From: Rhodothermales bacterium
Lineage (GTDB): Bacteria > Bacteroidota > Rhodothermia > Rhodothermales > Bin80
Length of the DNA stretch: 64,000 bases
Reading direction: 5' to 3'
Assembly (NCBI GenBank): GCA_022821385.1
Contig: JAJEDR010000025.1
Coordinates: forward strand, 1 to 64,000
In this document: piece after piece, positions 5,372 through 15,445 of the stretch
Position numbering within the stretch: the stretch's first letter is position 1
Layout of the letters: each line of letters opens with the position of its first letter
The notes under the pieces: generated by a model
Told to the model about the DNA's origin: nothing
Seen by the model: only the letters and a program-made list of their open reading frames with translations
Databases searched by the model: none
Program-made: the position numbers and the translations under genes

Positions 5372-8300
5372 TCAATTCGACTGCTTTTTCAAGCTGCGAC
5401 TCTTCCACAGATAGTAAATAGCCGGAATAACGGCGAGCGTCAATACCGTGGAAGAAATCATTCCCCCCACCATCGGGGTAACAATCGGTTTCATGACTTC
5501 TGATCCGGTACCATGGCTCCACAAGATCGGCAATAAACCAGCCACGATAGCCAGCACCGTCATCATTTTCGGGCGCACACGATCAACAGCTCCCACGATG
5601 ATTGCCTCGTAGAGGTCCCTGGGAGAGGTCATCCTTCCTTCCATAAGCCTTTTGTTGTAGGCCTGATCAAGGTAGAGCATCATAATGACCCCCGTTTCCG
5701 CAGCAACACCTGCCAGAGCAATAAAGCCGACTCCGGCTGCAATGCTGAGGTTGTAACCAAACATGTACATCAACCAGATTCCCCCAACCAGTGAAAAGGG
5801 CAGCGATAACATCACGATCAAACTCTCTGTGACATTCTTAAAATTCAAATACAGAAGCAAGAAGATGATCAAAAGCGTGAGGGGTAACACAACCTGGAGG
5901 CGCCGGCGGGCGCGTTCCATGTATTCGTGTTGCCCACTCCAAATCATGCTATAACCCTCGGGAAAGGTGATCTGCTCATTCAGCGATGCCCGGGCAGTCT
6001 CGACATAGGTGCCGATGTCTACGTTCTGGAGGTCAATATAAATCCAGGAGGTCTTTCGAGCATTTTCGCTTTTGATGACCGTGGGACCCTTAACAATACT
6101 GAAATCAGCTACATAACTGAGCGGAATTTGAGTTCCTGTAGGGGTAGGAATCAGGACGCGCTCAATTGCGGGCAGGTTATCACGCAGTTCACGGCTATAG
6201 CGTACGTTGACGGGATAGCGCTCCAAGCCCTCAACAGTCTGCGTGACATTCATCCCTCCGATGGCGGACATAATTACATCCTGTACATCACCGATGGTCA
6301 ACCCATACCGGGCCGCCTCCCTGCGGTCAATCTGGTAATCCAGAAAATTTCCCCCAACGGTTTTGTCGGACAATGCGCTCTGGGTGCCAGGTAGAAGCTG
6401 TAATACCGCAGCGATCTGTTCCCCCAGATCCGAAAGCACGGTTAAGTCCGGCCCCATCAGTTTAATGCCTAAGGGGGTTTTGATTCCAGTTGCCAGCATG
6501 TCAATCCGTGTCCTTATGGGCATAGTCCAGGCATTGGTTAGGCCGGGGAAGTTGATCGCATTGTCAAGTTCACTGATCAGTTTTTCCATGGTCATTCCAT
6601 CGCGCCATTCTTCTTCCGGCTTGAGTGTAATGGTTGTCTCCAACATGGATAGCGGTGCCGGATCGGTCGCAGTGTCAGCGCGCCCAGCTTTGCCGAGAAC
6701 ATGCTCTACCTCGGGGAAACTCTTGATGATTTTGTCTGTCTGTTGCAAGAGCTCCTTCACTTTTGTAATACTTATGCCGGGATCTGTCGTGGGCATGTAC
6801 AGCAAATCGCCTTCATTCAAGGGAGGCATATATTCAGTGCCAAGCTTCCTTAGAGGATAGATGGTTACCGCAAGGATTAAGAGAGAAGCAATAATAGTGG
6901 CCCACCTGAATTGAAGGACGCGATGAATTACGGGCTGATAGCATCGGATGAGTAGCCGATTTATGGGGTTTTTCTTTTCTGGTAGAATTTTACCGCGAAC
7001 TAGATATCCTATCAAGACAGGGACCGTAGTGATCGCCAAAAGCGCTGATGCGGCCATCGCATAGGTTTTTGTAAAAGCTAGTGGCTTGAACAAGCGCCCC
7101 TCCTGCGCCTGCAGGGTGAAGATGGGCAGGAATGAAAGTGTAATGATCAGCAGCGAGTAGAAGAGAGCGGGCCCCACTTCCTTACATGCATCAACAATGA
7201 TTTGCCAGCGGTCTTTCTTCCCCGCATGACGCTCAAGGTGTTTGTGTGTGTTTTCAACCATTACGATGGCTGCGTCAACCATAGACCCGATTGCGATAGC
7301 AATCCCGCTGAGTGACATGATATTGGCATTGAGGCCTTGTGCATTCATCACCCAAAACGCAATTAAAATCCCCAGCGGAATCGTGAAGATGGCGACCAAG
7401 GCACTACGGAAGTGTACCAGGAACAGAATCGTCACCAGTGCAACGATCAGGCTTTCTTCAAGAAGCTTGATTCTCAGGTTGCTGATTGCCCGTTTGATCA
7501 GGCTACTACGGTCATACGCAATTTCAATCTGCACACCTTCCGGCAGGCCTTTTTCCAGTTCTGCCAACTTTGTCCTTACAGCATCAATAGTCTTAAGTGC
7601 ATTTTCACCGTAGCGCATGACCACAATACCGCCTACAACTTCTCCTTCGCCGTCCCAGTCAGTGAGTCCTCGTCGAAGTTCTGGTCCCAGATGTACGTTC
7701 GCAACGTTGCGGATAAGGATGGGAGTGCCATTTTCATCCACACCAACCGGCGTATTCTGAATATCTGTAATGGATTGGATGTACCCGAGGCCGCGAACCA
7801 TGAATTCGGTTTCTCCCATTTCAATCAGCTTCCCTCCCACATCGTTATTGCTCCGCTGTAAAGCGACACGAACACTTGATAGGGGCACACCATGGGCCAG
7901 GAGTTTATTTGGATCCACCTCGACCTGGTACTGCTTGACGTAGCCACCGATAGAAGCTACTTCTGCGACTCCCGGCACACTCATTAATTCGTAGCGGAGA
8001 AACCAGTCCTGAATTGAGCGTAACTGGTGGAGATCGTAACGATCCCCTCCATCAAGGACATATTCAAAAACCCATCCCACTCCCGTCGCATCGGGTCCCA
8101 GCGTGGGTGTCACGCTCTCGGGCAGACGATCACCGACATAATTGAGATATTCCAGCACACGGCTGCGTGCCCAGTAGATATCCGTGCCATCCTCGAAAAT
8201 GATATAGACAAAGGAGTGTCCAAACGATGAATAACCACGTACGGCCTTGGCAAAGGGAACCGACATCATAGCCGTGGTTAAGGGGTACGTCACCTGATCT

Positions 8301-8485
8301 TCCACGACCTGAGGGGCCTGCCCAGGGAATTCGGTGAATAAAATGACCTGTACATCGCTTAAGTCAGGGATGGCGTCCACCGGTGTGCGAAGCATTGCGT
8401 AGATCCCGGCGCCTGCAACTGCAAACGTGAAGAGGATCACGAAAACCCGATTCTTAACAGAGCTCTCTATAATCTTCTCGAGCAT
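5372..8485 (-). CDS. cusA: Heavy-metal efflux RND pump, CusA/CzcA family
   Basis: This 1037-residue inner-membrane proton antiporter extrudes metal cations, probably Cu(I)/Ag(I), through a CusB-CusC conduit. It shows the usual RND plan: one TM helix at the start (RVFVILFTFAVAGAGIYAML), a large periplasmic loop, TM2-6 with SGIAIAIGSMVDAAIVMVEN (the TM4 Asp of the proton relay), a second loop, and TM8-12. The segment RTRIDMLATGIKTP matches the CusA loop holding one of the metal-binding methionines of the periplasmic cleft, which favours the monovalent-metal (Cus) subgroup. It is the last gene of a leftward operon with adaptor, outer-membrane factor and a His/Cys-rich exported protein. The ATG at 8485 agrees with the family start (MLEKIIE). 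Confidence 0.92.
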   Translation of the reverse strand: MLEKIIESSVKNRVFVILFTFAVAGAGIYAMLRTPVDAIPDLSDVQVILFTEFPGQAPQVVEDQVTYPLTTAMMSVPFAKAVRGYSSFGHSFVYIIFEDGTDIYWARSRVLEYLNYVGDRLPESVTPTLGPDATGVGWVFEYVLDGGDRYDLHQLRSIQDWFLRYELMSVPGVAEVASIGGYVKQYQVEVDPNKLLAHGVPLSSVRVALQRSNNDVGGKLIEMGETEFMVRGLGYIQSITDIQNTPVGVDENGTPILIRNVANVHLGPELRRGLTDWDGEGEVVGGIVVMRYGENALKTIDAVRTKLAELEKGLPEGVQIEIAYDRSSLIKRAISNLRIKLLEESLIVALVTILFLVHFRSALVAIFTIPLGILIAFWVMNAQGLNANIMSLSGIAIAIGSMVDAAIVMVENTHKHLERHAGKKDRWQIIVDACKEVGPALFYSLLIITLSFLPIFTLQAQEGRLFKPLAFTKTYAMAASALLAITTVPVLIGYLVRGKILPEKKNPINRLLIRCYQPVIHRVLQFRWATIIASLLILAVTIYPLRKLGTEYMPPLNEGDLLYMPTTDPGISITKVKELLQQTDKIIKSFPEVEHVLGKAGRADTATDPAPLSMLETTITLKPEEEWRDGMTMEKLISELDNAINFPGLTNAWTMPIRTRIDMLATGIKTPLGIKLMGPDLTVLSDLGEQIAAVLQLLPGTQSALSDKTVGGNFLDYQIDRREAARYGLTIGDVQDVIMSAIGGMNVTQTVEGLERYPVNVRYSRELRDNLPAIERVLIPTPTGTQIPLSYVADFSIVKGPTVIKSENARKTSWIYIDLQNVDIGTYVETARASLNEQITFPEGYSMIWSGQHEYMERARRRLQVVLPLTLLIIFLLLYLNFKNVTESLIVMLSLPFSLVGGIWLMYMFGYNLSIAAGVGFIALAGVAAETGVIMMLYLDQAYNKRLMEGRMTSPRDLYEAIIVGAVDRVRPKMMTVLAIVAGLLPILWSHGTGSEVMKPIVTPMVGGMISSTVLTLAVIPAIYYLWKSRSLKKQSN

Positions 8486-8526
8486 GGTTTCGGGGATAGT
8501 TTCTGGTTGAACAAAAGGCCTAATTT

Positions 8527-9906
8527 TTAATGATTGTGTTGATGCTCCATCGGTGCTGTTTCATCGGTAGCAGAGCGGCTCATCAACGTATCCATATCCG
8601 TCATCTGAGTCTCCGAATCTGTTGGCGAGGAGAGCATTTTGCGAAGAGTCTCCTGGAGTTGACTCTCGCTGTCTAGCATAAACTGGGCGGAGGAGACAAC
8701 CTGTTCATGTCCAGACAGACCAGCGAGGATGCGGACATACTGGTTATCTGGCCCGCCCTCCTCGCCAATTAAAACTTCACGAGGTTCAAATCGACCATTT
8801 CCATGTGCAATGAATACGATAGTGCGTGTTCCAGAGCGCACGACTGATTCGGAATGAACGACCAGTGCATCGGGGATTATATGTCCCTGCAATTCCACAT
8901 TGGCATACATACCTGGCTTCAGGTCCAGGTCAGGGTTTGAGAAAATCAGGCGGACATGGACATCACGTGCTTTTTCCCGCAGGTAGGGATATATGTAGGA
9001 CACCCGGCCGGTATAGGTCTTGCCCGGTAAATATGACAGCTCCATTTTTACCGGCTGCCCATCGCTGATCCACGGGACTTCATTGTCATAAAAACTGGCG
9101 TGTACCCACACCATATTCAGATCAGCGATCTCAAAGAGATCCTGGCCTGCCTCAATATAGGCTCCCTCAATTGCGTTTCTTTTGACAACAATGCCCGTAG
9201 CAGGGGCAACCAGAAGGATGGTTTTCCGAATCTCCCCGAACTGGGTCAGCCGATCAATTTCTGCTGGAGGAATATCCCAGTTCTCCAAACGATTCCGGGC
9301 GGAGACCAGGAGCCTTTCGGCATCTTCCTGTATGGACGGAAGACTACTTTTTGCAAGTTGCCGGTAGTTTTTGAGGGCGAGTAAATACTCCTGCTGTGTG
9401 GAAACCAGTTCGGGTGAATAGATCTCCAATAATGAATCCCCCTGCTGTACTTGGTCGCCAACAAAATGAACATGGAGATTCTGAATCCAGCCGGAAACTT
9501 TCGTGTTCACCAGAAAAAGATTCTCTTCGTCGTACTGAACTTCACCGACCGTGTGAATCGTGCGGGAGAAATCCAGCTGCTGAACCGGTTCTGTTCGAAC
9601 TCCCATATTCTGGACCGTGACAGGGTCAATCAACACTGCATTGTCTGATTGCATCTCGGCATTCTCTTCGTAGACGGGGATCAGATCCATGCCCATTTTT
9701 GATTTGCCAGGTTGGTCATAGATTTCTGTCGGATCCATTGGGGCGCGCCAGTAAAGGATGGTTTGCTCATCCGTCAAATCTGTCTCTTGAGATTGCATCC
9801 CTTCCGGTTCACTGGTCAAGCGTCCGAAAAAAAAGCTCGCAACCACGACAATCATCAGGAGCAGAATCCCGCCCGCTATTTTGATTTGTTTTTGAGTAGT
9901 CATCAT
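8527..9906 (-). CDS. cusB: RND periplasmic adaptor, CusB-like, with degenerate heavy-metal-binding domain
   Basis: This membrane-fusion protein links the CusA-type pump to the TolC-like channel. It has an N-terminal anchor (GGILLLMIVVVASFFFG), then at about residues 51-80 a heavy-metal-binding domain resembling YTCPMHP...CPxCGMDL, here written as YWRAPMDPTEIYDQ and SKMGMDLIPVYE. The Cys residues are gone but Met residues remain. Barrel-sandwich, alpha-hairpin and beta-barrel domains follow (VQQGDSLLEIYSPELVSTQQ, GIVVKRNAIEGAYIEAGQ). The C terminus ends in HQHNH, a possible metal ligand. The ATG at 9906 is preferred to the TTG at 9918, which overlaps tolC by four bases. It is translated just upstream of cusA. 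Confidence 0.88.
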   Translation of the reverse strand: MMTTQKQIKIAGGILLLMIVVVASFFFGRLTSEPEGMQSQETDLTDEQTILYWRAPMDPTEIYDQPGKSKMGMDLIPVYEENAEMQSDNAVLIDPVTVQNMGVRTEPVQQLDFSRTIHTVGEVQYDEENLFLVNTKVSGWIQNLHVHFVGDQVQQGDSLLEIYSPELVSTQQEYLLALKNYRQLAKSSLPSIQEDAERLLVSARNRLENWDIPPAEIDRLTQFGEIRKTILLVAPATGIVVKRNAIEGAYIEAGQDLFEIADLNMVWVHASFYDNEVPWISDGQPVKMELSYLPGKTYTGRVSYIYPYLREKARDVHVRLIFSNPDLDLKPGMYANVELQGHIIPDALVVHSESVVRSGTRTIVFIAHGNGRFEPREVLIGEEGGPDNQYVRILAGLSGHEQVVSSAQFMLDSESQLQETLRKMLSSPTDSETQMTDMDTLMSRSATDETAPMEHQHNH

Positions 9907-9914
9907 GCTCTTGG

Positions 9915-11243
9915 TCAACGAAGTGATGGAAATATGTCAAGATCGGCGAGGGAGTCAATGCCGAGTACCTGCTCCAGGAGGGCCGTAATCTGCAGGTAGC
10001 GGGCGAACGTGTCTTCATAGTCCGTGTTGAGCGTGAACAGCATCCGCTCCGCATCCAATAGATCCAGGTAATCTGTATCTCCTGTGGTGTAGGAGTTGAG
10101 TGTGGCTTCTAGTACCGTCTCTGCCTGTGGAATAAGGCCCTCTCGAAATAACAAGATTTGTCTGGTCACTTCCTCTAGCTGATGAACGAGGCCAGTGATC
10201 TCCGTCTTGAATGAAGTTTCAAGCGACTCTCGGAGCGCGTTAATTTCGCTGCGATATACACGGGCTTCCTCCAGCTGAGCTCGCAGCCGAGTTCGTTGAA
10301 GCGGTACCTTCATGAGTACTCCAATAGCGATGGCATCTCGGCCCGAAGCGGTTGCTGGTACATCCGCACCACCAATATCAAAGTAGGTGATGTTCAGGCC
10401 GAAGTCTGGTTTGAATTGTTTTCGGGCCAGCAATATTTCTGCATCTATGCGCCGCGCAGTTGCACGAAGGGCATCAATTTCAGGGCGTTCGCGCAGAGCA
10501 ACATCCAGTAGCGCTCCGGTATCAAACTCAATGAAGGGCAGTGACTCCACCTGGATGGAGTCAAGGGGTAAGCTTGTCGTGGATTGATTCAAAAGGTATG
10601 CTAGCGTTTTGACAGCGACGTGTCGCTGTTCTGCGAGCTTGAACTGCAGACGAGATAGAGCATTTCTCTCCAGTTGTGTTTTCGAGATCGCCTGTTGGAC
10701 GTCCAAGCCTACCTCGTAACGGGTTGCCGCAGTTTGTTCAAAACTTTCCAGCCGATTTCGGAAAGCAGAAATATGCCGCTCCTGTTGTTGAATGCGATAG
10801 AGTTCGTAGTAGGCCTGCTTGACTTCAAGGAAAAGGGTCTTTTCGAACGCTTGTGACTCGAAATTCTTGGTTTTGGCGTTCAGATTGGCAATGGCTCCCC
10901 GTAGTTGTAGTTTCCCAGGGTAGGGAAAGGTTTGTTCAATGCTCCACTGACTCCGCTGCGTGCCGAGCGCGGTAAGGAGTGAGTAGGGTTGGTAGGTGAT
11001 TCTCACCGTTGGGTCTGGAAGTGCGGAGACCTGATCTCTTCTAAAGGTCAATGCTCTTGCCTTCAGACGAGATGCCAGCAGCGACGGGTTGTTGCTGCGG
11101 ACTTCTTCAAGAAGATCATTGAGGTTCAATAAAGCATTTACCGTCGTATCAGGCTGATGCTGACCATCAGCAGCGGTCGGGCGCAGTGATAATGCTAGAA
11201 ATACGACGGCGAAGGTCGCACCAACGAGAAAGCGTTGTTTCAT
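9915..11243 (-). CDS. TolC-family outer-membrane efflux protein (CusC-like)
   Basis: The 442-residue outer-membrane factor has a signal peptide (RFLVGATFAVVFLALSLRP) followed by the two long OEP repeats of coiled-coil helices typical of TolC (for example NNPSLLASRLKARAL near residue 57 and the second repeat near LREGLIPQAETVLEA). It forms the trimeric channel of the tripartite efflux system encoded by the next two genes. The end overlaps the possible TTG start of the adaptor, which suggests translational coupling. No Cys-lipobox is seen, unlike E. coli CusC, so it is probably not a lipoprotein. Family assignment rests on helical pattern and operon position. Confidence 0.85.
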   Translation of the reverse strand: MKQRFLVGATFAVVFLALSLRPTAADGQHQPDTTVNALLNLNDLLEEVRSNNPSLLASRLKARALTFRRDQVSALPDPTVRITYQPYSLLTALGTQRSQWSIEQTFPYPGKLQLRGAIANLNAKTKNFESQAFEKTLFLEVKQAYYELYRIQQQERHISAFRNRLESFEQTAATRYEVGLDVQQAISKTQLERNALSRLQFKLAEQRHVAVKTLAYLLNQSTTSLPLDSIQVESLPFIEFDTGALLDVALRERPEIDALRATARRIDAEILLARKQFKPDFGLNITYFDIGGADVPATASGRDAIAIGVLMKVPLQRTRLRAQLEEARVYRSEINALRESLETSFKTEITGLVHQLEEVTRQILLFREGLIPQAETVLEATLNSYTTGDTDYLDLLDAERMLFTLNTDYEDTFARYLQITALLEQVLGIDSLADLDIFPSLR

Positions 11244-11326
11244 CAGTTCTGATCAAATAGAGTAATCCGTTGCAATACATCGAAGTACAGTAAGTCTGCA
11301 CTTCGGTACTGGAATCACACTATTTC

Positions 11327-11779
11327 TCAGATCAGAAAGATGAGCAGCAGGGCCTGCCTGTCTACAGCAGGAAGTGGAGGGATGGTTTTTTGGGAATGCC
11401 TTTGATTGAAGTCTCTGAGCACTTCCTTTTCGAAGGGTGTGTGCGTGCGAGAATCAGAGAGCGGCTGCAAGTCATTCCGGCAATGGTTTAGAAACAGAGC
11501 CTCTTCAACTGCCAGTGTTGCTTCAAGTGTACAACATTGCAGGGTATCCGAAGAAGGGCAGGGCAGGTTTGTAGCATGCGTCATGCCCCCGTTTTCATGG
11601 ATGCAGGGAGGGGTCCTATCGGAAGAATGGATTGGTTCCGATGTAGCATGATGGCTCCCGTGCCCGTCCATTTGACTCATTGCGCATATGGGTTGCAGGA
11701 GCGGCCCCGCTGCACTCAACAGTAGTCCCATACTAAGCAGGAGAGGGAGAAGCGTGTGTTTTCTTAGTGCAGAGAGCAT
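11327..11779 (-). CDS. His/Cys-rich exported protein of the metal-efflux operon
   Basis: From the ATG at 11779 the protein has about 150 residues. A signal peptide or N-terminal anchor (LRKHTLLPLLLSMGLLLSAA) is followed by a short segment rich in His, Met and Cys: CAMSQMDGHGSHHAT, then CIHENGGMTHATNLPC and LQCCTLEA. This spacing suggests metal binding in the periplasm. It is not recognisably CusF, CopZ or a mercury protein. It is the first gene of the efflux operon, 83 bases before tolC, so it may buffer or deliver Cu/Ag. The longer frame starting at 11848 adds a poor N terminus and is not preferred. Confidence 0.65.
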   Translation of the reverse strand: MLSALRKHTLLPLLLSMGLLLSAAGPLLQPICAMSQMDGHGSHHATSEPIHSSDRTPPCIHENGGMTHATNLPCPSSDTLQCCTLEATLAVEEALFLNHCRNDLQPLSDSRTHTPFEKEVLRDFNQRHSQKTIPPLPAVDRQALLLIFLI

Positions 11780-12361
11780 GAAAAGGAGCCTACTTCCATA
11801 GGCCGCGGCGGATCCAAGACAAACCTGTATTAATACTACCGATGTCATTAGATTAGGTTCGATTTAGCCCGAGTGCCGAGTAAATTTGGTAAATGGTACA
11901 TAATAATCCCCTGTCGCCGTCTTGAAACTCTGTGAACACACGATGTTGTTCTCCTCTTCTTATGCCAGGAAACAAAATGGACTCCCAAAGTCTTACGGTG
12001 ACAGCAAAATCTTCTACATTGTGAGACTGCATGATTGCTCCAATGGCACGAAACCAAGAGGACACGATCTTTCCAGAATACTATTCTCCATCGACTTCTT
12101 ATTGAGAACGTTATAGATCGGTTTGTGGGAAGGACCTATGTACAGGCAGACTGCCTGCGAGACTGCCTATTAGGAAGGAGCTGTATAAAAGCTCTTGAAC
12201 TATCTCTGGTTCGTGTGTTCGGGCTATAAACACCAAGTCCTACCATCCCCCAAACGCCTCTTTTCGATTACTACGTCCCTCCGTCCCCCTCGAAATGGGA
12301 ACATACAGTTAACAACGGGCGAACCAGGGACGGATAAACTAAATCCTACCGCTCAGCAGAA
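11780..12361. other. Long intergenic region between the efflux operon and the helicase gene
   Basis: About 580 bases separate the two divergent units. Short open frames exist on both strands (for example 11853-12065 minus) but none has a convincing ribosome-binding site, conserved motif or usual codon texture. The region must hold the promoters for both units. I could not pick out a CueR/CsoR-type palindrome with confidence. Confidence 0.5.
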
Positions 12362-15300
12362 ATGCCAAAGAAACTGGTTCCTGGCCTATATGACAAGGTG
12401 TTTACGGAAGGAAATCATCATGTCGTCGAAAAGGATCCATCACTGCAGGCGCACACCGAGACGCTGCAGAGTCACACTGGAATCCGACTGCTGTCGCAGC
12501 ATCTGAACAAACTTATTGAGCGCGCACTCACGAAGAAGTCCAAAGAAAACTGGGTTGAACTGGCCAACGACCTGATTCGGGTCATCGAGAAAAATACACA
12601 TGGGGGCGTAGTACAGCAATCTGATCTTGTGACAAATACCCGGTTGATAGAGCTTGCACAAGGCGTTCAAGCTCAAATAGATACGCAAACCAGACGACCG
12701 GGGATACCGCTTTCGTATTCAGAGTTGTTAACGAATTCTTCAAACGATTACCGTATTGGATATGAACTGAAACGGGAAATTGAGTCTGCCGATCGGATTG
12801 ATATTCTGGTAGCATTTGTCAAGTGGTCCGGGCTTCGCCTTGTACGCGATGCATTGCAGGACTTTGTCGCAAGAGGAGGAAAGCTGCGGGTGATCACGAC
12901 GACCTATATGAAGGCGACCGAGCGGCAGGCCATTGATGAACTGATCCAGATTGGCGCCAAGATTAAAATCTCGTATGACACTCGCCGGACACGACTCCAT
13001 GCAAAAGCATGGTTGCTTCATCGCGAAACGGGTTTTTCAACTGCATTCGTTGGTTCTTCAAACCTAAGCGCTGCGGCACAGCTTGATGGACTTGAATGGA
13101 ATGTCCGGCTGTCTAAGGTGGATGCCGGGCGAATCATTGATAAAATTGAGGCCGCTTTCAGCAGTTATTGGGAAGACGTTGAGTTCGAAAGCTATGATAG
13201 CAACCCGAAATGCCGAGAACGATTTGATACAGCTGTAAAGGAAGAGCCTCCGCCTGGACGCATTACGAGCCTGGAGGTCCATCCTTATCCGTTCCAGCAG
13301 GAAATCCTGGATAAGCTGGATGTGGAACGCACGGTCCATGGTCGAACGCGCAATCTTGTTGTTGCAGCTACCGGTACAGGTAAAACCGTCATGGCCGCAT
13401 TGGATTATCGTCGACTGGCTCGCCTCATAAACCCTCTACGCCTCCTGTTCGTTGCCCATAGAGCGGAAATTCTGCAGCAGGCGCGCACGACTTTTCGAGA
13501 TGTCCTAAAGCACAACACCTTTGGGGAAGACTATGTGGGCGGGTCACAGCCCCAGAAATGGGACCATGTATTTGCTTCCGTCCAGTCTCTTGCAAACTTT
13601 GATCTCGATAAGATCAATCCAAAGCATTTCGGGATGATCATTATTGACGAATTTCATCATGCTGCTGCCAAAACTTATCAGAGGCTTCTTGAGCATTTTC
13701 AACCCCACTATCTACTGGGGCTCACTGCGACCCCCGAACGTGCGGACGGAAAGGATATTCTTTCCTGGTTCGGAGGCCGCGTTGCTGCAGAGCTGAGAGT
13801 CTGGGATGCCATTGATCGTGGTCTACTGGTTCCATTCCATTACTTCGGGCGGCATGACGGTGGAGATTTGTCTTCTGTGCGATGGGTTCGTGGCAAATAT
13901 GATGACGCTGAATTGACTCGTCTCTTTACCGCTGATGATATTCGTGTACTGAAGATCCTGAAAGTGGTCCGAGAGCACATTGCCGATCCTCTGAAGATGC
14001 GTGCATTAGGGTTCTGCGTCAGTGTGTCTCATGCTGAATTCATGACGCGAAAATTCAATAATGCGGGCATTCCTGCCGCCTGCATTACGGGGAAGACTCC
14101 CAGAGAAGAACGAAAAAGTGCACAAAACCGGCTGAGAGCGTGCAAGGTGAACATACTCTTCTCCGTGGATGTACTCGGAGAAGGGGTGGACATTCCTCCG
14201 GTGGATACCATCCTGATGTTGAGACCAACCAACAGTGCTACTGTGTTCATCCAGCAGTTGGGGCGTGGACTCCGTTTCGCTGAGGGTAAAACCTGTCTAA
14301 CCGTCTTGGACTTCATCAGCAACAGTGCGAGAAAGTTTCGGTTCGACTACGCCCTTGGCGCCATGCTTGGGAGGGTTGCTCGTAAATCCGTCAAAAAGGC
14401 GGTTGAGAAGGACTTTCCTGCTCTGCCATCAGGATGCTCGCTCCAGTTGGATCGGGAGAGCAAGGAAGTCGTTCTGAACAATCTGAAGGCGCAACTTCGT
14501 TACAGGTCGAGAGAACTGGTGAACTTGCTTCGTGACCTGGGAGACCGGGCAACTTTGAAGACTTTCCTGGATGCAGCGGAGTTGTCAATTGAAGATTTCT
14601 ACGACAAGAGAAAAAACAGTTTCGCGTTATTGCGGCGAACAGCTGGTCTCTCCATGGCCAACGAGGGACCTGAAGAGGCCAAGATCGGAAAGAGGTTAAG
14701 ACTGTTGGTCCATGCAGATGACGCTCTCCGGCTTGACTTCATACGCCGGGCTGCCACAGGCAGTCTGAACGTGAGCGAGTTATCCGAATGGGATCGGCGC
14801 CGCCTCCTCATGTTGGTGTGCGTGTTGTTGGGTAGGGGGGCTGCAAACGATATAAGCGAAGGCTACAACAAAATCCTTGCTCATCCCGCTATCTGCGAGG
14901 AACTCATTTCACTGACAGATTTATTGAAAGAGAACATCGCTCATGCACCTTCTCAGTATGCAATCGCCCCCGAGGTCCCGCTGGATTTACATACCAGATA
15001 TTCAATGCTAGAAATTGCCTCTGCGTTCAATTTGGTAGGAAAAGGGGAATTGATGCGCCTAAAGGAGGGGGTCCGCTTTGACAAAGTAACAAACTGCAAT
15101 ATGATCTTCATAACCATAAATAAAGATGAAAAGCAGTATGCCAGCACTGCTATGTACCGGGATTACGCGATCAACGCTCATCTCTTTCATTGGCAATCCC
15201 AAAACAACACCAAATCAGGCAGCATGTCGGGCCGTCGCCATACACATCATGAAACTCTTGGGATAACCCCTCTGCTCTTTGTGCGTACCGCCAAGGAGAC

Positions 15301-15445
15301 CGAGTATGGGCTGACAATGCCGTACCAATTCTTGGGACCGGCATCATACCAGTCGCATAAAGGAGAACAGCCGATGAGTATTACCTGGGAAATGAAGTAC
15401 CCGGTTCCAGCCGACATTATCCGTAACATGCGTCGTGCCGCGTAG
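12362..15445 (+). CDS. PLD-nuclease / SF2 helicase / DUF3427 protein
   Basis: This 1027-residue multidomain enzyme has a family N-terminal helical segment (MPKKLVPGLYDKVF). A phospholipase-D-type nuclease domain follows with one HxK motif (RLHAKAWLLH, about residues 211-220) and GSSNLS at 231-236. The superfamily 2 helicase core has Walker A ATGTGKT (336-342), motif II IIIDEFHHA (429-432 DEFH), motif III TAT (455-457), and motif VI QQLGRGLRF near 631. The C-terminal 350 residues match the DUF3427 module, whose closing part resembles a nucleic-acid-binding fold. Family members are often found in defence islands, but the role is not established. The gene is alone, not in an operon, with a long 5' gap. 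No truncation is seen. Confidence 0.87.
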   Translation: MPKKLVPGLYDKVFTEGNHHVVEKDPSLQAHTETLQSHTGIRLLSQHLNKLIERALTKKSKENWVELANDLIRVIEKNTHGGVVQQSDLVTNTRLIELAQGVQAQIDTQTRRPGIPLSYSELLTNSSNDYRIGYELKREIESADRIDILVAFVKWSGLRLVRDALQDFVARGGKLRVITTTYMKATERQAIDELIQIGAKIKISYDTRRTRLHAKAWLLHRETGFSTAFVGSSNLSAAAQLDGLEWNVRLSKVDAGRIIDKIEAAFSSYWEDVEFESYDSNPKCRERFDTAVKEEPPPGRITSLEVHPYPFQQEILDKLDVERTVHGRTRNLVVAATGTGKTVMAALDYRRLARLINPLRLLFVAHRAEILQQARTTFRDVLKHNTFGEDYVGGSQPQKWDHVFASVQSLANFDLDKINPKHFGMIIIDEFHHAAAKTYQRLLEHFQPHYLLGLTATPERADGKDILSWFGGRVAAELRVWDAIDRGLLVPFHYFGRHDGGDLSSVRWVRGKYDDAELTRLFTADDIRVLKILKVVREHIADPLKMRALGFCVSVSHAEFMTRKFNNAGIPAACITGKTPREERKSAQNRLRACKVNILFSVDVLGEGVDIPPVDTILMLRPTNSATVFIQQLGRGLRFAEGKTCLTVLDFISNSARKFRFDYALGAMLGRVARKSVKKAVEKDFPALPSGCSLQLDRESKEVVLNNLKAQLRYRSRELVNLLRDLGDRATLKTFLDAAELSIEDFYDKRKNSFALLRRTAGLSMANEGPEEAKIGKRLRLLVHADDALRLDFIRRAATGSLNVSELSEWDRRRLLMLVCVLLGRGAANDISEGYNKILAHPAICEELISLTDLLKENIAHAPSQYAIAPEVPLDLHTRYSMLEIASAFNLVGKGELMRLKEGVRFDKVTNCNMIFITINKDEKQYASTAMYRDYAINAHLFHWQSQNNTKSGSMSGRRHTHHETLGITPLLFVRTAKETEYGLTMPYQFLGPASYQSHKGEQPMSITWEMKYPVPADIIRNMRRAA

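Follow-up and report, generated by a model that had tools for sequence, protein, structure and literature searches.

What does a gene do that fuses a PLD-type nuclease, an SF2 helicase and DUF3427 in one chain and stands isolated between neighbours on the opposite strand? The question is raised by a 64,000-nucleotide stretch of DNA from a Rhodothermales bacterium (GCA_022821385.1, contig JAJEDR010000025.1; the whole stretch is called the window here), where an intact open reading frame (ORF) of 1,027 residues runs from 12362 to 15445 on the plus strand, with an ATG start and no internal stop. An earlier note on this DNA had proposed a single-gene antiphage or repair system. Matches in Pfam, PADLOC and the PDB, together with structure models, indicate a gene for a stand-alone Type IV (modification-dependent) restriction enzyme of the SauUSI family, ATP-dependent and a member of the family's long-form branch. 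The activity is predicted, and we put the probability of this assignment at about 0.85. The most likely job, by analogy, would be the ATP-dependent shredding of incoming DNA that carries 5-methylcytosine (5mC) or 5-hydroxymethylcytosine (5hmC). The earlier note is partly supported: its parts are correct and it guessed the right field, the antiphage half of its proposal surviving as an already known class and the repair half finding no support, on the grounds given below.

The four Pfam matches all exceed their curated cut-offs and bear out the fusion that had been described: PLDc_2 at residues 137-270 (3.4e-10), ResIII at 306-460 (2.7e-36), Helicase_C at 545-639 (1.7e-16) and DUF3427 at 828-1022 (1.4e-23). 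In PADLOC, the mREase_IV model PDLC03659 gives a subfamily match of 851 bits over residues 108-1020, beginning at model position 12, although the helical N-terminus of the window protein falls outside it. A second mREase_IV model, PDLC03658, indicates the same kind of enzyme at 251 bits, but its alignment covers the PLD-SF2 part only (residues 122-666). This second model has 953 positions, the length of SauUSI, and its type is called the short form here; the window gene is of the long form. The best solved sequence is SauUSI of Staphylococcus aureus (7clg, “Crystal structure of the ATP-dependent restriction endonuclease SauUSI”), found at 2.5e-75 with the single sequence and at 6.6e-146 with a profile of 18 homologues, which aligns with it from the PLD domain through the target recognition domain (TRD).

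The retrieved passages of the SauUSI study describe a dimer held together via the PLD domains, an SF2 motor, a helical coupler and an SRA-fold TRD modelled to flip 5mC (PMC7913695). The window protein has the same order in a single chain, all on the plus strand: a PLD-family nuclease domain (residues 137-270, 12770-13171) with HxK at 213-215 and GSxN at 231-234, defined by Pfam and a residue table; an SF2 helicase-like ATPase (about residues 306-660, 13277-14341), from Pfam, alignment and model; a putative helical coupler (about residues 661-865, 14342-14956), positioned through its alignment with the SauUSI coupler (618-805); and the TRD (residues 866-1027, 14957-15442) inside DUF3427. Both proteins also lack a linked methyltransferase. 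The part of a recent review that we draw on gives this absence as the rule for Type IV modification-dependent enzymes (PMC12707154), so that none is expected beside such a gene, and the earlier remark that none is present holds: the flanking genes are efflux, trmB, asparaginase and ruvA genes. As far as the retrieved portions of the SauUSI study (PMC7913695) and of two reviews (PMC3874153, PMC12707154) go, the enzyme class, the reader domain and the mechanism are already described for SauUSI. A Type I restriction R subunit of the EcoAI type, which shares the SF2 motor core, was rejected on its score (107.7 bits versus an NCBIfam cut-off of 550), and no M or S subunits occur among the flanking genes tested.

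The catalytic residues were compared across 39 long-form homologues, the window protein included. H213 and K215 of the HxK motif, G231, S232 and N234 of GSxN, and E245 are invariant (39/39), as are K341 of Walker A, D429, E430 and H432 of the DExH box and R635 and R638 of motif VI, so the helicase motifs and the nuclease HxK are intact, as the earlier note had stated. Within the TRD, G903, Y932 and W944 are invariant, D934 and Q947 are kept in 38 of the 39, V904 in 32 and F916 in 30. In SauUSI, according to the passages retrieved, D858 is proposed to contact the flipped 5mC, W868 to stack on it and Y831 to touch the methyl group (PMC7913695). D858, W868 and F841 of SauUSI align with D934, W944 and F916 of the window protein, in which two residues of that modelled pocket, the Asp and the Trp, are thus kept. 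Compared with the copy in a congeneric genome (G009, 78% identical), the ratio of nonsynonymous to synonymous substitution (dN/dS) is 0.16, so the protein has been under purifying selection. Among named relatives, the two closest to this gene are from metagenome-assembled genomes of Rhodothermaceae.

The reader domain is best seen when residues 866-1027 are modelled by themselves; the model, based on 13 sequences, has a mean predicted local distance difference test score (pLDDT) of 88.6. By VIA, it superposes on SauUSI 803-953 (Z 13.9, root-mean-square deviation (rmsd) 2.6, 133 residues aligned) and on the SRA domain of SUVH5 with methylated (5mC) DNA (Z 9.6, rmsd 3.0, 120 aligned); rows 1-48 of its matches are presumably all SRA-type readers or UHRF1-containing assemblies. 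A Foldseek search places SauUSI at ranks 1 and 2, the sole matches with E < 0.001, followed at ranks 3-14 (E 2e-3 to 6e-2) by MspJI, AbaSI, SUVH/KRYPTONITE, TagI, ScoMcrA and UHRF1, which we take to be SRA-type readers, as some of the titles state. In the model, the C-terminal domain is an SRA-fold modified-base reader. The full-length model is poorer (pLDDT 75.7, with residues 1-47 and 80-131 below 50); it aligns with 7clg over 750 residues at Z 26.1 and an rmsd of 16, so that its domain placement is not trusted.

Do the surroundings of such genes point to defence? At 13 loci of the phylum, ORFs of at least 150 residues within 6.5 kb of the gene (119 of an initial 133) were compared with ORFs elsewhere on the same contigs (111, reduced from 159 by way of 127), all called by a simple longest-ORF rule; the test set includes a locus with a broken homologue (G022). 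At PADLOC E values up to 1e-15, and counting families rather than proteins matched, 78 families were found among the neighbours versus 14 among the control ORFs. The check for defence enrichment that the earlier note had suggested thus came out positive. Among 25 of the 78 listed are DISARM, BREX, MADS, Mokosh and SoFic proteins and Type II methylases; the control families are E1-E2, RtcR, subtilase and others. Another 13 loci, without a control of their own and several of them closely related (L213-L215 among themselves, L199 and L201 to the test-set locus L200), gave 72 families among 103 ORFs, with BrxL, PglZ, Hhe and others among 25 of the 72 listed. On plasmids, four Pseudoalteromonas replicons carry the gene in variable stretches near SIR2, AbiEii, ABC-3C, HipA or HNH genes; the other four long-form plasmid loci are less telling (a Hymenobacter locus near recombinases, a Peptoclostridium locus in a metabolic setting and two without annotation). 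PDLC03659 matches of at least 500 bits, some of them incomplete, occur in 29 of 394 sampled genomes of the phylum.

The distribution of the gene nearer to home is patchy. In a sample of 99 genomes from its own genus, family and order, the host included, nine hold a full-length copy, one of which (G004) has a single in-frame stop, and two (G008 and G022) hold fragments only. The host genome (G000) is a draft of 3.39 Mb in 96 contigs, 97.6% complete, with the window on contig C49; a profile search found no DUF3427 in it other than this gene. Three different sites are occupied within the genus: that of the window, shared by G004 and G008, in which the gene or what is left of it also adjoins trmB, and those of G001 and G009, whose five nearest ORFs, compared between the two, include no common neighbour. 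In G002, G003, G005, G006, G007, G009 and G010, trmB is followed by a 220-residue O-methyltransferase gene (66-82% identical to that of G009, on which the Pfam assignment was tested); the window and the stretches of G004 and G008 yielded no such gene, and there the restriction gene or its remains adjoin trmB. In G004 the gene lies directly between trmB and a biotin-carboxylase-like gene. In the window, the restriction gene is separated from the biotin-carboxylase-like gene by a CusA/CzcA-type RND heavy-metal efflux operon (5372-11848), which is absent from that place in G004. The efflux operon on the left and trmB on the right are both on the opposite strand, and the flanks also hold murJ; of the neighbour names, ruvA, murJ, trmB and the CusA-type efflux were tested. 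The gene is patchy and mobile within the genus.

Could it instead serve the host in DNA repair, as a helicase-nuclease like RadD/XPB, and lie near ruvA for that reason? The SF2 core of the full-length model, taken alone, has RadD as its best structural match (Z 29.0), the NCBIfam RadD model gives 112.6 bits, and ruvA follows to the right as the third gene, two genes away. That score is far from the equivalog cut-off of 720 bits, however, and RadD shares the motor core alone, the PLD and SRA domains being additional; RadD was rejected on both score and architecture. Furthermore, 90 of the 99 genomes lack a full-length copy, the loci in G001 and G009 lie elsewhere, and the family's neighbourhoods are rich in defence genes. 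Location near housekeeping repair genes, named in the earlier note as the sign of a repair role, is seen for the window copy and for G004 and G008 at the same place, and is not consistent across the genus. A repair role is the least probable of the readings considered, and we regard it as highly improbable.

Several observations weigh against assignment to the SauUSI family as a modified-cytosine nuclease, and they concern the protein, its hosts and its integrity. Structural alignments give a low identity to SauUSI, 20-23%, so the base or the sequence context read could differ. The glutamate of the SauUSI active-site motif, named H(X)K(X)4E in the passages retrieved (PMC7913695), corresponds to H220, which is variable among the homologues, and Y831 lies opposite V904 in a gapped stretch of the alignment. 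Carriers do not avoid C5-cytosine methylases overall (PF00145 in 4/9 carriers versus 31/90 non-carriers), and G009 combines an intact restriction gene with nine matches to such methylases. The copies of G004 and G008, with their stop and breakage, indicate that the gene is dispensable.

The first group of these points bears on whether an enzyme of the same architecture has an SRA pocket that reads another mark, such as glucosylated or hypermodified cytosine or phosphorothioate, and so protects from a different set of phages. The presence of V904 at the place aligned with the Tyr proposed to contact the methyl group, the occurrence of Phe at F916 in just 30/39 homologues and the low identity would all suit such a pocket, and the fold matches include the 5hmC-specific AbaSI and PvuRts1I as well as ScoMcrA with phosphorothioated DNA. 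The Asp and Trp modelled on flipped 5mC are nevertheless kept in 38/39 and 39/39, and we consider a different mark a possibility of the second rank, unlikely though not far-fetched.

As to the hosts, no PF00145 match, the sole DNA methyltransferase family searched genome-wide, was found in the 97.6%-complete genome of the window, which fits the expectation for a host of a 5mC-cutting enzyme. Within the genus, three of the four carriers (G000, G001 and G004) are without PF00145, whereas none of the six non-carriers is, each having 2-13 matches (G008, with its broken copy, is counted among the six). Mutual exclusion with C5 methylases is thus suggestive in the genus, is contradicted by G009 and is absent over the 99 genomes, and it was not retained. 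Five genomes (G002, G003, G005, G009 and G012) have 9-13 C5-cytosine methylase matches each, some of them split hits.

The damaged copies, both at the window's own site, could also mean that the gene is a decaying, inactive remnant in this lineage. The window copy itself has all the tabulated catalytic residues, no stop, the low dN/dS given above and an upstream element described below, which makes decay very improbable.

How would a SauUSI-family enzyme of this kind work? Dimerisation, ATP-driven translocation, cutting and 5mC/5hmC specificity are all carried over from SauUSI and would apply by analogy. The C-terminal SRA domain would find 5-methyl- or 5-hydroxymethylcytosine and flip the base into the pocket with D934 and W944. 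The coupler would relay recognition to the SF2 motor, leading to ATP hydrolysis and movement along the DNA, and two PLD domains would pair, their HxK motifs together making up a single active site. Enzymes moving along the DNA might then accumulate and cleave the two strands, so that DNA with modified sites is shredded. Host DNA would escape, for want of the modified-cytosine mark.

Differently to SauUSI, the window protein begins with a conserved helical module (residues 1-121, 12362-12724, plus strand), delimited by the long-form alignment and the model. SauUSI has just 28 residues ahead of the aligned stretch, and residue 122 of the window protein lies opposite SauUSI residue 29-30, which leaves about 93 additional residues before the PLD domain. 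The module, of about 120 residues, is found in all 39 long-form homologues, with G8 and Y10 kept in 38 and N69 in 36. It is predicted to be helical at low confidence (pLDDT mostly below 50), and its fold is uncertain. At E values up to 0.1, no Pfam family matches more than two of the 39 N-termini, and a PDB profile search with the module gave nothing credible (best E 0.06). HEPN_Swt1 was rejected as a chance match, reaching 18.9 bits in the window protein versus a Pfam gathering threshold of 27.5 and occurring in one of the 39. Our guess is that the module serves oligomerisation or control of the nuclease.

The DNA ahead of the gene had been described as a 580-base gap. The gap exists, but it measures 513 bp when counted from the start, at 11848, of the minus-strand ORF, and part of it is conserved. 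The stretch at 12277-12361 (plus strand) is common to the window and G004 over 85 bp, its last 69 bp are shared with G009 and blocks of it with G001. Between the window and G009, which occupy different sites, the shared stretch consists of these 69 bp and the gene, ending at the stop codon. The upstream stretch carries GGAACA...GCGAACCAGG at 12298-12328. In each of four carriers the pattern of GGAACA, 14-24 bases and GCGAACCAGG has a single occurrence, which lies at this gene, and eight other genomes lack it; the pattern was drawn from those four copies, so that its presence there is by construction and its absence elsewhere is the result. It is possible that the stretch is a promoter or operator of the gene; a sigma-70 promoter was rejected, the search for one giving 3 candidates versus 3.7 in shuffles. 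The gap also holds a 65-bp trmB relic (12177-12241, minus strand), 92% identical to trmB of G008, 89% to that of G004, 85% to that of G009 and 80% to the window's own. Being closer to the trmB of sister species than to its own, the relic marks the scar of a recombination event.

Does the enzyme work alone? The earlier note had seen no partners, and this is so for the window gene, beside which no Nudix gene lies. For the family it is not, since many relatives have a linked Nudix gene. A Nudix-box ORF of about 130 residues adjoins 10 of the 39 long-form homologues, nine times directly upstream (L199, L200, L201, L203, L204, L207, L213, L214 and L215) and once, on a viral contig (L086), downstream. 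In eight of the nine upstream cases the Nudix and restriction genes, as called, overlap by four bases. Short forms show the same link in 11 of 15: all eight from the phylum search (L239-L246, two of them near-copies) have a Nudix ORF just upstream, and three (L258-L260) of the seven plasmid short forms examined, from twelve matches (H9-H20), have an upstream gene annotated as a (deoxy)nucleoside triphosphate pyrophosphohydrolase. In Lactiplantibacillus (L258), the short-form gene has, besides the upstream Nudix gene, a second “nucleotide pyrophosphohydrolase” downstream (L258:5338-5658). A viral short form (L091) has a Nudix ORF about 550 bp downstream. Among the incomplete long-form copies (L247-L253, L089 and L090), Nudix is adjacent at L253 and L089 and about 2 kb off at L252; the other six, some on short contigs, have no Nudix ORF. 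Thirteen control regions of 18.6 kb contain no Nudix box.

Among neighbour ORFs of at least 150 residues, no family recurs at more than three of the 26 loci; the Nudix genes, mostly of about 130 residues, for the most part fell below this limit. On a tree of 54 proteins, made by a quick method and with long branches flagged, the Nudix label needs five changes versus a mean of 17.1 in shuffles, and the window's own group (12 rows) has no Nudix-linked member. Nor does the host appear to supply the partner in trans: the sole Nudix match in its genome lies in a 369-residue frame, probably MutY by its length, and all 12 genomes compared, carriers or not, have one in a frame of 365-438 residues. G001 has an additional weak second match.

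What kind of Nudix hydrolase is this? The best NCBIfam model for seven of nine Nudix ORFs is PRK10546 (pyrimidine (deoxy)nucleoside triphosphate diphosphatase), in every case below the cut-off. A profile of the Nudix ORFs gives 124.3 bits with 5x1x (“Mutator mutT protein”), 92.9 with 2rrk and 57.7 with 1mut, so by profile score the ORFs are nearer to E. coli NudG (2rrk) than to E. coli MutT (1mut). The retrieved text of one source names 2RRK as the E. coli 5-methyl-deoxycytidine triphosphate (5-methyl-dCTP) pyrophosphatase (PMC5389931), and that of another gives NudG a rate constant on 5-methyl-dCTP about 100 times that of MutT (PMC3744803). The adjacency itself has been noted for Streptococcus in a figure legend, the portion of that paper available to us (PMC7641849); among the best literature matches, we found no publication on a link between SauUSI and Nudix/MutT or between Nudix and Type IV restriction.

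The NudG-like profile and the activity of NudG on 5-methyl-dCTP together suggest self-protection. Tentatively, SauUSI-type enzymes may often be the nuclease half of a two-gene module with a NudG-like Nudix hydrolase that destroys 5-methyl-dCTP or 5-hydroxymethyl-dCTP. It is possible that the hydrolase keeps salvaged modified cytosine out of host DNA, acting as a nucleotide-pool antitoxin against self-shredding, a form of self-protection for which the literature matches listed include no publication. Alternatively, it might deny phages their modified precursors. The window copy's branch would dispense with the hydrolase, and its host has no C5 methylase that could be detected. We hold such a module to be doubtful, though worth stating.

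For this family, a “PLD-helicase-DUF3427” protein of unclear role becomes a concrete prediction, the ATP-dependent restriction of DNA with modified cytosine, and in the model an SRA reader forms the C-terminal domain of the long-form branch. A functional Nudix link, should there be one, would explain how some hosts tolerate a modified-cytosine nuclease, namely by cleaning of the nucleotide pool.

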